Source: Sphingosinicella microcystinivorans
GTDB taxonomy: Bacteria > Pseudomonadota > Alphaproteobacteria > Sphingomonadales > Sphingomonadaceae
Direction of reading: 5' to 3'
NCBI RefSeq assembly: GCF_003634215.1
Contig: NZ_RBWX01000007.1
Coordinates: 1,102,945 to 1,166,944 of the forward strand
DNA: 64,000 nucleotides
Part shown: positions 45,495 through 53,466 of the stretch, in pieces
Numbering within the stretch: the stretch's first letter is position 1
Layout of the letters: each line of letters begins with the position of its first letter
Notes under the pieces: generated by a model
What the model was told of the DNA's origin: nothing
Database searches by the model: none
The model's input: only the letters and a program-made list of their open reading frames with translations
Position numbers and translations under genes: made by a program

Positions 45495-47630
45495 TTAGGC
45501 TGCGCGGACGCGTGCGAGGAAGCGGTCCACCTCTGTGGTGAGCGTGCTTGCCTGCCGATTAAGGTCGGCAGCAGCATCGAGTGCGTCCTTTGCCGCAAGG
45601 CCCGTCGCTTCGACGCCGGTGCGTACCTGATCGATATTGCGTGCGACGGCGTGCGTGCTGTCGGAAGCCTGATGGGTGTTGCGGGCGATTTCGGACGTGG
45701 TGGCGGCCTGCTGTTCCACGGCGGCGGCGACCGTGGCGGCGATACTGTTGATTTCGCCAATCGTGGAGACGATTTCTTCAATTGCACCAACGGTTTCGCG
45801 CGTCACAGACTGAATCGCGCCGATTCGCTCGTTGATGTCGATCGTCGCTTTTCTGGTCTGGTTCGCGAGCGCCTTGATCTCGCTTGCGACGACCGCAAAT
45901 CCGCGTCCAGCTTCGCCGGCGCGGGCCGCCTCGATGGTCGCGTTGAGTGCAAGCAGGTTGGTTTGCTCGGCGATCGAATTGATGAGGCCGACGATCTCTC
46001 CGATTTTTTCGGCGTCTACCGAGAGACCCGTGACGATTTCGTCGGTCGCACGGGCGCGGGATACGGCCTGCTCGGACATTGCCGACGATTCGACGACCCG
46101 GTGCGAGACCTCGGCGAGCGAACGGGCCATTTCCTCGGATGCATTGGCAACGGTGAGCGCGTTGTGGCTCGCTTCCTCCGCCGAGACAGTAACATCGGTG
46201 ACGAGCACGGCGCTGCTGCGTGCCGCATCGCTGACCTGCTGCGAGCCTGCCGCGATCTGGCGCGCGGCGCTGTCTACGGCGGCGACGACGTGACGGACGC
46301 TTGTTTCGAAGGCGTCGGCGAGTTCGTTGAGCGCTGCGCGCTTTTCGACAGCGGCTTGCTGGCGTTCGGCTTCGCGTTCGGCGCGGGCGGTTTCCTCGCG
46401 TTCACGTTCGCGACGCTCCGCTTCCACAGCGGCACGGCGGCGCTCTTCGACTTCGGTCGCGTTTTCCTTGAACACGGCCACGGCTCGCGCCATGTCGCCG
46501 ACCTCGTCGCGTCGCCGCGCGCCTTCGATGCGCGTGCCGGTTTCGCCGCGCGCGAGCGCGAGCATCGCGTTCGCCATCGTTGCGATCGGGCGTGCGATGA
46601 GATGGTTGGTGAGGAGACCTGCTACGATCGACACGCCGATACCGGCGGCGCCGGCAATAAGCGTGATGAGAATGGCGCCGCCGGCGGCGGCCTGTGCAGC
46701 GAAATCGGCGGTACCCTGTTGATCGGCGATCGCTTCGGAGAAGGCCTGCACGTTGCGCTCGAACGCCGGGCCGGTCTTGCCGAGCAGCCTATCAACAGCA
46801 GCGTCGCGGTCGGTGGTACGGCGGACGATCTCGTCGAATGCCTTGTCGTAGGCGACAAGGCTGACGATGACGCTATCGGCCTTGCGGGTGAGCGCGGGAT
46901 CGTTGAGGCCCTCGAAAACGCCGTTCAGCGCATCTTCGAGGTTGAGGAGGTCGGATTTGGTCTGCTTGACGATCTCGGGTGAGGGTGCGGAAAGGTACCG
47001 GTTCACGTCGACCCGCAGCAGCGAATAGGTTTCAAGCGCTAGCGCTGCATTATAACTCGTCTGATGGTCGCCGGCCTCGTGACTCGCTGTGACGATGTCA
47101 TGGAGCGTAGTGCTGATCTCCGGCCCCTTGGCCTCGATCGTGCCGGACACGAGCCGGGTAATGGCCGTCTGGTTCTCGACGATGCCGCGAAATTCGGTGC
47201 GGAACACACCGCGGAGCCGGTCGATCCGCGCGAGCGTGTCTTCCTCGTGGACAATGGCCGCCCCGTCTTCGGCGCGTTTCAGCGCTTCCTGCGCCGCATC
47301 GAGGCTTTCGTTGACCTCGGCGACAAGCGATGCCTCGGGGCGGATTACGTAGTCCTTGATGCGTCCCTGCGCCGTCATCGCGGTGGTGTGCGCGCGAGAG
47401 ATCGAGCGGGCGCTGTCGGCCAGGCGAGTGACTTCGGAGACAGTGGAGCGGGTGACGAGCAGCGAGCCAGTGGCGACCATCGCGAGAATGGCCATCGCGA
47501 GCCCGCCGATGCCGTAGCTCACCAGAACTTTCTTGCTGATCTTCCAGTGAGTTATGATCGCGGTAAAGCGCGACACGTCGACGCGCGCGATCAAATCCCT
47601 GAAACGCTCCATAGCCAGCACAAGCCCCAT
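45495..47630 (-). CDS. Methyl-accepting chemotaxis protein
   Basis: A 711-residue chemoreceptor. Transmembrane helices lie near residues 36-59 and 317-341, with a ~255-residue helical periplasmic sensor between them. HAMP follows, then a Glu/Arg-rich coiled coil, then the signalling tip ([42 protein letters not shown]), which binds CheA and CheW. No CheR-tethering pentapeptide is at the C-terminus. No che genes are in the window. It lies about 3 kb from the fliN-fliG-fliF genes on the same strand. Ligand unknown. Confidence 0.92.
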
Positions 47631-50297: not shown

Positions 50298-50639
50298 ATG
50301 GAAGGGTGGATCCATAAAACTGCGATTGCCGCGCTCGTTCTCCTCGCTTCGGCGGGGACGGCGTCTGCTGCGGATTGGAGATCGACCGTCACGCGGCTTA
50401 TTGCCGCGCAGCACTCCTATCCGCGCAGTGCCCAGATACGGGGCGATGAGGGCACCGCGAAGGTGCGGATCAGCGTGGATGCCGGGGGCACGATTACCGG
50501 CGTCGAACTCGTCGAGCCGACGGGATCGCAGATTCTGGACCGTGAAGCGGTGCGCATTCCCAAGAAGATCGGCACCGTGCCGCCGCCACCGGACGGCCCG
50601 ACCAAGCTGGTAATCCCCATTGCCTGGAAGCTTACCTAG
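50298..50639 (+). CDS. Small periplasmic TonB C-terminal-domain protein
   Basis: 113 residues: a signal peptide (MEGWIHKTAIAALVLLASAGTASA), then a single TonB-like C-terminal fold (SYPRSAQIRGDEGTAKVRISVDAGGTITGVELVEPTGSQILDREAVR). It lacks the membrane-anchored Pro-rich arm of true TonB, so it cannot itself transmit energy from ExbBD. It may bind receptors or act as a periplasmic decoy or scaffold. No clear ribosome-binding site precedes the ATG. Confidence 0.75.
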   Translation: MEGWIHKTAIAALVLLASAGTASAADWRSTVTRLIAAQHSYPRSAQIRGDEGTAKVRISVDAGGTITGVELVEPTGSQILDREAVRIPKKIGTVPPPPDGPTKLVIPIAWKLT

Positions 50640-50799: not shown

Positions 50800-51129
50800 T
50801 CAGGCGTCTTGCTTCACGATTTCCGTCATGGTGACGCCGAGGTGCTCATCGACCAGCACCACTTCGCCGCGTGCGACGAGGCGGTCGTTCACGAAGATGT
50901 CGATCGCTTCGCCGACGCGCCGGTCGAGCTCGATCACGGCGCCGGGGGCGAGCTTCAGGAGCTGGCTGACTTCGACCGCCGAGCGGCCGAGTACGGCTTG
51001 CACGCGCACCGGCACGTCGAAGACGGATTCGAGCTCCACCGCCCCGGTCAGGCCGTTGGCAGCCTCTTCGGGCGACACTTCTGCCGCATAGGCGCGGGCG
51101 GGTTCATAATCGGGACGCAGATCGTCCAT
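50800..51129 (-). CDS. fliN: Flagellar motor switch protein FliN
   Basis: 109 residues with an intact SpoA (surface presentation of antigens) domain: VFDVPVRVQAVLGRSAVEVSQLLKLAPGAVIELDRRVGEAIDIFVNDRLVARGEVVLVDEHLGVTMTEIV. This is the standard FliN fold of the C-ring base, which in flagella pairs with FliM. ATG 51129 follows GGGAGAAGC. It lies 29 bases after fliG. No fliM is present, so FliN could assemble directly on FliG or on an unlinked FliM. Downstream there is no further flagellar gene. Confidence 0.9.
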   Translation of the reverse strand: MDDLRPDYEPARAYAAEVSPEEAANGLTGAVELESVFDVPVRVQAVLGRSAVEVSQLLKLAPGAVIELDRRVGEAIDIFVNDRLVARGEVVLVDEHLGVTMTEIVKQDA

Positions 51130-51158
51130 GTTGCTTCTCCCTCGAAAAGACGCAGGCA

Positions 51159-52139
51159 TCAGAATACGAACTCCTCGCTGCCGTCGCGGCTGTCGGCGAG
51201 AACGATCTCCCCCGCATCCGCGAGCTGCTTTGCCACCTGAACGATTGCTTGCCGGGCTTCCTCCGCCTCGCGCAGGCGAATGGGACCCATCAGCTCCATA
51301 TCCTCGCGCAGGATGCGCGCGGCGCGCTCCGACATGCTCATGAAGAAGAACTCGCGCAGCGCTTCGCCGGCGCCCTTCAGCGCCGCGGCGAGCCGGTTCT
51401 TGTCGATATTGCGGAGCAGTGTCTGGATGCTGGCCGCATCGAGACGCGCGAGATCCTCGAACGTGAACATCAACGCGCGGATGCGCTCTGCGGCATCGAA
51501 GGCGCGATCTTCGAGCGCCAGCATGAAGCGCGCCTCGGCGTTGCGGTCGAGGTGGTTGAATATCTCTGCCATCACTTCGTGCGTGTCGCGGCGTGTACTG
51601 TGCGCGGGGTTCGAAAGCAGATCGGTGCGCAGAGTCTCCTCGACCGTATCGAGCACGTCCTGCCGTACGGCGCCGACGCGAAGCATTCTGAGCACGACAT
51701 CCATCGCGGTATCGTCGGGCAGGCGCGAAAGGACACGCGCAGCCTGCTCGCGTCCGATCCGGCTGAGCACGACCGCAGCCGTCTGCGGGTGTTCGCCGCG
51801 AAGATAGGCGGCAAGAACGTCTTCGCTGACGTTGCCGAGCGTATCCCACGTGGTCTCTTGCGCTGGCTTGGAGCCGTCCAAAGCCGCGGTGCCGGAGACC
51901 TCGCCTGCGAACGTGGCAAGCAGCCGCTCAGCAAGCGGTGCCGGAACCGGGCCGATCCGTGCCATGGCGTCGCTCAGCGCCCGGGCCTCGTCGTTGCCGA
52001 GATGCGCCCAGATCGCGCCGCCATGCTCGCGCCCGAGCGCGACCATCAGCGCGGCGGCGCGCTCGACGCCGGAGAGCGCGGCAAGCGGCTCCGCTTCAGC
52101 GGCGGGCTCGGCGCGCAGGGCTGCGGCATGCGCCCTCAT
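51159..52139 (-). CDS. fliG: Flagellar motor switch protein FliG
   Basis: 326 residues, normal for FliG. The N-terminal domain that binds FliF is less conserved; the middle domain has GEHPQT (115-120) and the linker region has MFTFEDL (224-230). The C-terminal domain keeps the charged residues that contact the stator in E. coli: Lys255 (ALKGAGE), Arg272 (MSERAARI), Glu279/Asp280 (ILREDMEL) and Arg288 (PIRLR). The start at 52139 overlaps the fliF stop (ATGA); ATG 52151 is also in frame. Conserved torque residues argue against decay. Confidence 0.93.
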   Translation of the reverse strand: MRAHAAALRAEPAAEAEPLAALSGVERAAALMVALGREHGGAIWAHLGNDEARALSDAMARIGPVPAPLAERLLATFAGEVSGTAALDGSKPAQETTWDTLGNVSEDVLAAYLRGEHPQTAAVVLSRIGREQAARVLSRLPDDTAMDVVLRMLRVGAVRQDVLDTVEETLRTDLLSNPAHSTRRDTHEVMAEIFNHLDRNAEARFMLALEDRAFDAAERIRALMFTFEDLARLDAASIQTLLRNIDKNRLAAALKGAGEALREFFFMSMSERAARILREDMELMGPIRLREAEEARQAIVQVAKQLADAGEIVLADSRDGSEEFVF

Positions 52140-52981
52140 GCGGACATCCACTGGCGGACGATTGCGGCGGCAGCGGCCGGGCGCGCGGCAACGGCATCCC
52201 CTGCGCGGCGAAGCGCAGGACTGCGGCCAGCATCGGCCATGAGCGCGAAGGTTGCGGGTTCCGATGGCGCTGGCTCAGGCGCGGGCATCACAACGGGCGT
52301 GTGCCGCCTGAAACTGCGCAGAATCAGGAACAGCGCAGCGAGGCCAAGCATGCCGATCAGGATAACGCGCGCGAGCGGCAAGGCTGCATCCACGGTGCCG
52401 GAAAATGCAGGCGTGGTCTCGGCCGCGGCGAAGCGCACGGTCTCGACGATCAGTGAGTCGCCGCGCATCGCGTCGAAGCCCACGGCGCCCTTCGCAAGGC
52501 GCGTGAAGCGCGCGAGTTCGGCCTTCGTGCGCGGCTCGTAGCGGACCCCATCCGGCGCTTTGACATGATGACCGTCGACCATGACCGAAACGGTGAGGCG
52601 GCGAATCTGGCCGCTGCTCCTGATGGTGGTCGTCTCGGTACTGTTCGTGCCGGGCTCTACGGCCTCCGAAACCTGCCGCGTCTGGTCCGGTTCGATCTCC
52701 GCAGAGACGACGGCGCGCACGTTTTCGCGGCCGACGATCGCGCCGATCATCCCTTCGACCTGTTCGCGCAGCCGGGTTTCGACGCCGGCCTGCCGATCGG
52801 AAATGGGTGTGGTGGCGGCAATGGGGGAGGGATCAGCCGGAGCGGGGGCGGGATCGCGCAGCAGCGAAAGGCCGAGCAGCGCTACGGCCGCGCAGAGCAG
52901 GGCGACAAGCAGCAACTGGGGCTTCCCGTTCTGCTCCAGCGCTTTCAAGTCCGGCGCTTTCTGGGCCTGTTCCACGCGCAC
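52136..52981 (-). CDS. fliF: Shortened FliF-like MS-ring protein (C-terminal half type)
   Basis: 281 residues against about 550 for full FliF. Residues 23-42 form the first membrane helix; the periplasmic part (~43-202) has only the last ring-building region, with QIRRLTVSVMVDG and GAVGFDAMRGDSLIVETVRF; helix two spans ~203-224. The C-terminal tail ends AAAAAIVRQWMSA, nearly identical to the FliG-binding helix of E. coli FliF (VIRQWMS). The first two ring-building motifs are absent, and sciP lies upstream, so this is not a split gene. Start: GTG 52981 after GGGAAA, or TTG 52999. It is coupled to fliG. Confidence 0.85.
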   Translation of the reverse strand: MRVEQAQKAPDLKALEQNGKPQLLLVALLCAAVALLGLSLLRDPAPAPADPSPIAATTPISDRQAGVETRLREQVEGMIGAIVGRENVRAVVSAEIEPDQTRQVSEAVEPGTNSTETTTIRSSGQIRRLTVSVMVDGHHVKAPDGVRYEPRTKAELARFTRLAKGAVGFDAMRGDSLIVETVRFAAAETTPAFSGTVDAALPLARVILIGMLGLAALFLILRSFRRHTPVVMPAPEPAPSEPATFALMADAGRSPALRRAGDAVAARPAAAAAIVRQWMSA

Positions 52982-53086
52982 ACGTTTCCCGACTGTCAAA
53001 CAATGCGGAACTGTGGGGCCCGGATGGTGAAAATGGCGTAAAGAAATGGCGGGTCGGGGGGCGGGATCCCCGTGTGCCAGACGCAG

Positions 53087-53124
53087 AAAGGGCGGCAGAC
53101 GTCCCCCGATGTCTACCGCCCTTT
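53087..53124. terminator. Long stem-loop between sciP and fliF
   Basis: AAAGGGCGG (53087-53095) pairs with CCGCCCTTT (53116-53124), and inner arms AGAC/GTCT continue the stem after one mismatch, leaving a loop near 53102-53108. A-run and T-run ends make it look like a bidirectional terminator. It would separate sciP transcription from the rotor genes or attenuate read-through into them. Confidence 0.6.
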
Positions 53125-53128
53125 GGCA

Positions 53129-53152
53129 GGCGCCCGCACAGGTAGGGGCGCC
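53129..53152. terminator. Second stem-loop just downstream of sciP
   Basis: GGCGCCC (53129-53135) pairs with GGGCGCC (53146-53152) around 10 bases, 18 bases past the sciP stop. It is stacked in tandem with the longer stem at 53087-53124. Confidence 0.45.
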
Positions 53153-53169: not shown

Positions 53170-53466
53170 TCAGGCGCTTTCGCGGTCGTAGAGCGCCCGG
53201 TAGTGCTGAACGCGCGTGACGCGGAGGCCGGGCATTCCGACACGGTCGACGGCGCGTTCCCACGCTGCGAATTCTTCGGGACTGAGGCCATAGCGTTCGC
53301 ACGCGTCGTCCGCTGAGATGAGCCCGCCCTTCACCGCAGCCACGACCTCCGCCTTGCGGCGCACCACCCAGCGGCGCGTGTCCGACGGCGGCAACGTGTC
53401 GAGCGTAAGCGGCTCCCCAAGGGGGCCGATGACTGATGCAGGGCGAAACTTTTGATTTTCCATCAT
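53170..53466 (-). CDS. sciP: CtrA inhibitor SciP (DUF1153)
   Basis: 98 residues matching SciP over nearly the whole length: VIGPLGEPLTLDTLPPSDTRRWVVRRKAEVVAAVKGG, then the helix-turn-helix LISADDACERYGLSPEEFAAWERAVDR and VTRVQHYR. In Caulobacter SciP binds CtrA at promoters and blocks transcription of CtrA targets, including flagellar genes, early in the cell cycle. Two Met codons (53466 and 53463) start the frame. It sits directly upstream of the mini-fliF gene, separated by tandem stem-loops. DNA-binding regulator in the cytosol. Confidence 0.93.
   Translation of the reverse strand: MMENQKFRPASVIGPLGEPLTLDTLPPSDTRRWVVRRKAEVVAAVKGGLISADDACERYGLSPEEFAAWERAVDRVGMPGLRVTRVQHYRALYDRESA

Follow-up and report, generated by a model that had tools for sequence, protein, structure and literature searches.

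The closest described counterparts of the locus reported here are the flagellar motor of Caulobacter, with the surface-sensing pathway attached to it, and the Fla2 flagellum of Cereibacter sphaeroides. According to the accessible portions of PMC7885107, stator-dependent adhesion of Caulobacter needs an assembled rotor, proton flux through MotB, and FssB; the pathway is also active in hook- and filament-stage mutants, mutants stalled after rotor assembly activate adhesion via MotB proton flux, DgcB, FssA and FssB, and fliF and fliM mutants show a hyperadhesion that is independent of motB. FssB is a TPR protein with a Sec signal (PMC7885107, PMC11580411, both in excerpt), and FssF, a FliN homologue, joins the same pathway, as stated in the excerpt of PMC11580411. 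For Fla2, the available part of PMC10954123 reports that MotE is needed for rotation and that the N-terminal region of MotK holds an AMIN-like domain. The full CtrA site is given as TTAA(N7)TTAA in the available part of PMC6180460. In the open-access literature searched, we found no description of a retained motor of the flagellum-less kind considered below.

The window analysed is a stretch of 64,000 nucleotides (C1:1102945-1166944) from a Sphingosinicella genome of 3.96 Mb in 15 contigs (G000). Its minus strand encodes a short FliF of 281 residues (mini-FliF; 52136..52981, GTG start at 52981, TGA at 52136, Pfam FliF_C), a FliG of 326 residues (FliG2; 51159..52139, ATG start at 52139, with N, M and C domains) and a FliN of 109 residues (FliN2; 50800..51129, ATG start at 51129, FliMN_C at 80.7 bits), the start codons of all three having been chosen by us. 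Read from the sequence, fliF and fliG overlap in ATGA, and 29 bases separate fliG from fliN; with the Pfam domains, this bears out the tight mini-fliF-fliG-fliN operon noted in an earlier sequence-only reading of this DNA. Each FliG2 domain scored above its Pfam cut-off (FliG_C at 139.8 bits), with the NCBIfam fliG model just under its own (211.4 against 226.7), and the NCBIfam fliN model placed FliN2 above cut-off (92.1 against 84.05). FliG2 retains the EHPQ motif, and its C-terminal region is nearly invariant over six genomes. The same reading had seen no other flagellar genes; this holds within the window, where genome-wide searches placed no FlhA, FliM, MotA/ExbB, MotB plug or Flg_bbr_C match, but not for the genome, whose contig C3 carries many.

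The survey of related genomes that the sequence-only reading had proposed was performed on six genomes of the genus (G000, G085, G149, G150, G151 and G152, with G150 78% and G152 83% complete), and FliG2, adjoined by mini-FliF and FliN2, was present in 6/6. Named public loci encoding mini-FliF come from Sphingosinicella sp. MCMED-G19, Sphingosinicella sp. MAG-117, S. soli DSM 17328 and one Sphingomonadaceae MAG; two weak matches were to an Acidobacteria and a gammaproteobacterial MAG (L073, L074). Contig C578 of G150 was left out of the counts as probable contamination. On this short contig of an incomplete MAG (L080) lie genes of yet another, divergent flagellar set, the third in that assembly (MotA, FliN-like, FliG, hook-like).

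Against the FliF_C profile, mini-FliF scored 75.2 bits (cut-off 23.8), covering only positions 84-147 of 147; the NCBIfam fliF equivalog gave 44 bits, below its cut-off of 129.75, and Pfam found no YscJ_FliF domain, which the FliF of contig C3 possesses. For alignment we used C3 FliF and the FliF of six relatives (five of 524-579 aa, that of G007 of 427 aa). RBM1, RBM2, the collar and the cytoplasmic linker are absent in-frame, and RBM3, two membrane helices and the tail ALRRAGDAVAARPAAAAAIVRQWM are retained in both alignment and model; by alignment and AlphaFold/Foldseek, the protein consists of TM1, RBM3 with a shortened collar hairpin, TM2 and a predicted FliG-binding tail ending in VRQWMSA. 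RBM1 and RBM2 are missing from all six mini-FliFs. RBM1 and RBM2 of FliF house the export gate. The AlphaFold model, computed from 15 alignment rows and with a mean pLDDT of 70 that is good mainly over RBM3 and some helices, has a helix at 21-40 (TM1), RBM3 elements at 58-182, a helix at 200-226 (TM2) and tail helices at 255-280. Its top Foldseek matches were Salmonella FliF rings over RBM3 (E 2e-10 to 8t8p and others); compared with the Salmonella MS-ring, mini-FliF thus has the RBM3 fold in common but lacks RBM1 and RBM2 and has a very short collar. RBM3 is also its more conserved part (mean pN 0.087, against 0.227 and 0.214 in the flanking stretches).

Short forms of FliF are rare in the genomes sampled. 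Of the 149 genomes in the family sample, 52 gave matches; the short form occurred in G000 and G085 alone, and none was seen outside the genus. The fliF genes of G052 (frames 384 and 387) and G007 (446) look split or error-prone. In a class sample of 385 genomes, 208 of them matched at 1e-6, only G000 had a frame below 389 aa among the matches listed. These samples, the class sample as far as its listed matches go, rule out that mini-FliF is a frequent type.

Upstream of the operon lies a sciP-like gene (53170..53466, minus strand; DUF1153, 135.8 bits in Pfam), a neighbour from the older cluster; we take DUF1153 to be the SciP family. It stands beside mini-fliF in four of the six genus genomes, is not found there in G149, and the G150 contig ends at this point; sciP also precedes fliF in G052, G056, G007 and G040. 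Between sciP and mini-fliF, on the minus strand, are a terminator-like stem-loop (53060..53140; -47.2 kcal/mol, z -3.99 against 200 shuffles), both arms of which are conserved in 5/5 aligned genomes, and, in a conserved block 61 bases upstream of mini-fliF, a CtrA-like box TTTA-N7-TTCACC (53026..53042), which has two mismatches to TTAA-N7-TTAA and is likewise present in 5/5; the upstream alignment comprised five genomes, as the G150 contig starts close to the gene. On the other side, a small gene with a TonB-C-terminal-like domain and a signal-like N-terminus (50298-50639, plus strand) is convergent to fliN; it neighbours the operon in all six genus loci, the window included, and the next gene is succinate dehydrogenase iron-sulfur-like. 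About 3 kb downstream of the operon, a chemoreceptor with HAMP and MCP signalling domains is encoded at 45495-47630 (minus strand); an MCP is near the operon in 5/6 genus loci, and the sixth contig ends before reaching it.

At the same site, G052 and G040 carry mnmA, flgD, flgE, sciP, fliF, fliG, fliN, flbD, flhA and flhG, of which the Sphingosinicella window has mnmA, sciP, mini-fliF, fliG and fliN only; the cluster of G056 matches from flgE onward, its contig being cut before mnmA. The fliF at this site encodes 569 aa in G040 and 579 aa in G056 and is split in G052; fliH lies between fliG and fliN in G056, and fliK was confirmed in G052. Split frames (L045, L048) were seen for fliF in G052 and for flhA and fliG in G007, likely through sequence errors or decay. 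FliG2 is 54-56% identical to the FliG of the relatives' clusters and about 28-30% to C3 FliG, and a tree sets FliG2 and the Caulobacter-type FliG apart from C3 FliG with a support of 100/100. From the relatives' synteny and the FliG tree it therefore follows that Sphingosinicella lost most of the old cluster and kept sciP (in 4/6), fliF, fliG and fliN. These comparisons clearly mark the window operon as what is left of a larger Caulobacter-type flagellar cluster at this site.

A genome search for export, hook, filament and stator genes, which the sequence-only reading had asked for, revealed a separate flagellum on contig C3 of G000. It comprises a second FliG, a FliF of 584 aa with YscJ_FliF and FliF_C, FliM, FliN, FliI, FlhA, FlhB, FliP, FliR, FlgE, MotA, MotB and a flagellin of 545 aa; further flg and fli names on C3 were assigned by reading and BLAST. 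The sequence-only reading had named, as the finding that would speak against it, a flagellar cluster without fliF and fliG that relies on the operon; the C3 cluster has both, which rules out that its flagellum depends on the window genes, and, with FliF, FliG, FliM, FliN, a stator and a flagellin all encoded on C3 itself, the operon is not the missing rotor of that flagellum. About 8 kb beyond this cluster lies an integrase-like gene (by reading; L006, ~C3:440714-442048); the C3 flagellar set could have been acquired.

Since both systems coexist in one cell, the older parts might also serve the C3 flagellum as a second stator and as subunits of a mixed C-ring. Dual stators on one rotor are known in other systems. 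We regard such an accessory role as improbable, given that C3 has its own FliF, FliG, FliM, FliN, MotA and MotB, that FliG2 is so dissimilar to C3 FliG, and that a separate anchor, its FliG-binding tail resembling that of the old lineage, makes little sense if the C3 MS-ring is used.

Searches with profile PF00771 found a single FlhA, of the C3 type, in each of 5/6 genus genomes and none in the sixth, G150 (78% complete). As the only G000 match of this FlhA/SctV profile is the flagellar FlhA, a type III injectisome as the system to which the operon belongs was ruled out. All five Flg_bbr_C matches of G000 lie within C3:422,277-429,975; G085, G149, G151 and G152 have five each and G150 has six, one of them on C578. 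With the sole FlhA being of the C3 type and all Flg_bbr_C matches of G000 on C3, the old system is therefore without an export gate of its own, as judged on FlhA, and without a rod or hook, as judged on the Flg_bbr_C family.

The retained set is larger than the three-gene module first described, and includes FliM, FliL, MotA, MotB and a MotK-like protein; in G000, the second FliM, FliL, MotA and MotB are spread over three other loci. The second FliM (FliM2; PF02154) was found in G000, G149, G085 and G151 and partially in G150, and was not found with PF02154 in G152 (83% complete). FliM2 is 54-58% identical to FliM of G052, G056 and G040 and passed the NCBIfam fliM cut-off (241.4 against 219.6). 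A DEIDSLL stretch, presumably the CheY-binding motif, is present in the relatives' FliM and absent from FliM2 in 4/4. The gene order is dksA-fliL-fliM-TPR in four of the six genus genomes and partly in G150. In the relatives, the fliM locus continues with a MotE-like gene, cheZ (by Pfam in G052) and a gene for a large MotK-like protein, with DUF6468 in G040; in Sphingosinicella, the TPR gene directly follows fliM2, with no MotE-like, CheZ or DUF6468 genes between, and no MotE was found at the fliM2 locus of the genus, a difference from Fla2. The TPR protein has a signal-like N-terminus and aligns with the C-terminal portion of the MotK-like proteins of G052 (32% over 528 columns, E 3e-47) and G040 (28% over 483); some 420 residues at the N-terminus of the G052 protein have no counterpart in it. 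We call the relatives' proteins MotK-like after their size, their place and the description in the available part of PMC10954123; the likeness to Fla2 MotK concerns the C-terminal part, and the N-terminal region said there to hold the AMIN-like domain is missing here.

The second MotB is present in 6/6 genus genomes, as is its stretch AYADFATAMMAFF. In the tree MotB2 is placed with Caulobacter-type MotB (100/100), its branch being long and flagged by the program; its OmpA-like loop GHTD is altered in G151, G150 and G149, and it remains below the cut-off of its best-matching NCBIfam model (157.1 against 277), as does FliL2 (86.9 against 197). The second MotA was found in 5/6 genomes and was not found in G150 (78% complete); it passed the NCBIfam MotA1 cut-off (348.4 against 303.8). 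The comparison of MotA2 covered C3-like MotA: it shares 43-45% identity with C3 MotA and with the MotA of three relatives, themselves 57-71% like C3 MotA. In G000, 2.3 kb after motA2, lies a MASE1-PAS-GGDEF gene (L124:12719-14491). It gave no lead to a cyclase partner: the gene was not found at the motA2 loci of the four other genomes, where L129 does not extend far enough on that side to show it, and no diguanylate cyclase partner of the motor was identified at the motA2 loci of the five genomes. A search in G000 further located a stand-alone FliN of 82 aa near an EAL gene (L078:10019-10267, C2:531 kb), which may correspond to Caulobacter FssF.

The dispersed genes are preceded by similar CtrA-like boxes. 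TTAA-N7-TTAACC stands upstream of motA2 in 5/5 genomes and TTAG-N7-TTAACC, with one mismatch, upstream of motB2 in 6/6; boxes with two mismatches are found upstream of mini-fliF (5/5) and fliL2 (5/5) and, in G000, 63 bases upstream of the 82-aa FliN gene. In 244,000 bases of G000, a count that excludes the motB2 locus, there is one perfect box (that of motA2), 7 sites with at most one mismatch and 110 with at most two, and the weak boxes therefore count only through their conservation. The retained set resembles the Caulobacter-type motor in the sciP-fliF-fliG-fliN order shared with the relatives, the linked fliL and fliM, the unlinked motA and motB and these boxes, and differs from it in having no export gate (FlhA), rod or hook (Flg_bbr_C) of its own.

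The operon is under purifying selection, with dN/dS of 0.15-0.42 for mini-FliF, 0.09-0.19 for FliG2 and 0.04-0.17 for FliN2 (15 pairs each); its neighbours gave 0.056-0.101 for MnmA (6 pairs) and 0.057-0.116 for the MCP (10 pairs). C3 FliG, with a mean of 0.019 (10 pairs), is tighter than FliG2, and the operon is therefore under constraint, though a weaker one than acts on C3 FliG; the faster evolution of FliG2 could reflect relaxed constraint. Mean values for the partners were 0.050 for MotA2 (10 pairs), 0.211 for MotB2 (15), 0.220 for the TPR protein (6), 0.123 for FliL2 (6) and 0.205 for FliM2 (range 0.145-0.237, 6 pairs, frames trimmed), with G152 absent from the FliM2, FliL2 and TPR sets and G150 from these and the MotA2 set. 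That the genes are a decaying leftover heading to loss would agree with the many neighbouring flagellar genes already gone and with the pace of FliG2 relative to C3 FliG. We nevertheless consider decay very improbable: the aligned copies are free of stops and frameshifts, dN/dS is well below 1 at synonymous distances of up to ~0.8, and the losses inside proteins track domain borders and are common to the genus genomes compared.

The much stronger constraint on MotA2 than on most other retained genes would fit a second alternative, a non-rotating scaffold, in which mini-FliF, FliG2, FliM2 and FliN2 make up an immobile platform in the membrane, such as a landmark at the cell pole, while the stator genes have some other task. 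The rotor genes alone would suffice for this, and neither motA2 nor motB2 is linked to the operon; yet the FliG2 C-terminal region is nearly invariant, MotB of the same lineage, FliL and a MotK-like protein have all been retained, and CtrA-like boxes lie upstream of several of the loci, so that we judge a scaffold unlikely.

We lean, by a little over an even chance, towards the operon encoding the membrane anchor and some C-ring proteins of a Caulobacter-type motor, retained after its flagellum lost export gate, rod, hook and filament. Lost at the loci read are export, rod, hook, the CheY site and CheZ, and FliF, FliM and MotK are cut at domain level. In view of these losses, of the homologues that remain and the purifying selection on them, and of the conservation of the boxes, the best reading of these sequences is that the retained set would be a CtrA-controlled rotor-stator motor without export gate, rod, hook and filament. 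A stand-alone rotor serving its own purpose, as first proposed, persists as the best reading, but with more than three genes, an origin as a remnant, and a second flagellum in the cell. That it would be a working motor of some use seems slightly favoured. Mini-FliF would assemble in the inner membrane into a ring of RBM3 alone and hold FliG2 by its tail, and FliM2 and FliN2 would complete the C-ring; MotA2-MotB2 may drive or load this rotor together with FliL2 and the shortened MotK/FssB protein, presumably without control by CheY. Speaking against this explanation are the faster evolution of FliG2 compared with C3 FliG, the lack of an identified diguanylate cyclase partner at the motA2 loci, the long branch and altered GHTD of MotB2, the scores of FliL2 and MotB2 below cut-off, the absence of MotE from the fliM locus, FliM2 not being found in G152 and MotA2 not in G150, and the frequency of two-mismatch boxes.

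For the use of such a motor, the retained set looks like the hardware of the stator-dependent surface-sensing pathway of Caulobacter: the protein after fliM2 recalls FssB in having TPRs and a signal-like N-terminus, and the additional 82-aa FliN on C2 may correspond to FssF, the difference being that Caulobacter has a complete flagellum. By this analogy, torque or stator engagement might be turned into a signal (surface contact, c-di-GMP) and not into swimming; signalling of this kind is the likeliest use, held tentatively and well short of an even chance. Torque could instead perform envelope or surface work, such as gliding or Tol/Ton-like energy transfer, for which the recurrent TonB-C-like gene convergent to fliN and the lack of the CheY-binding stretch can be cited; no adhesin, track or outer-membrane partner occurs in the loci read, however, and the TonB-C gene, placed between fliN and a succinate dehydrogenase-like gene, may be unrelated, which makes this use quite unlikely. 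The most complete version of the motor reading, a genus-wide flagellum-less rotary motor with an S-ring-only FliF, C-ring, stator, FliL and TPR protein, turning or loading beside a separate flagellum for signalling or work, is possible, at slightly less than an even chance.

If true, Sphingosinicella would offer an example from nature of a flagellar motor retained when its propeller was lost, along with a naturally minimal FliF ring. This would bear on whether rotor and stator are useful without an export gate or filament, a matter relevant to flagellar evolution, and on whether a motor alone can sense surfaces; the retained set suggests that a bacterial motor may be useful without a propeller.
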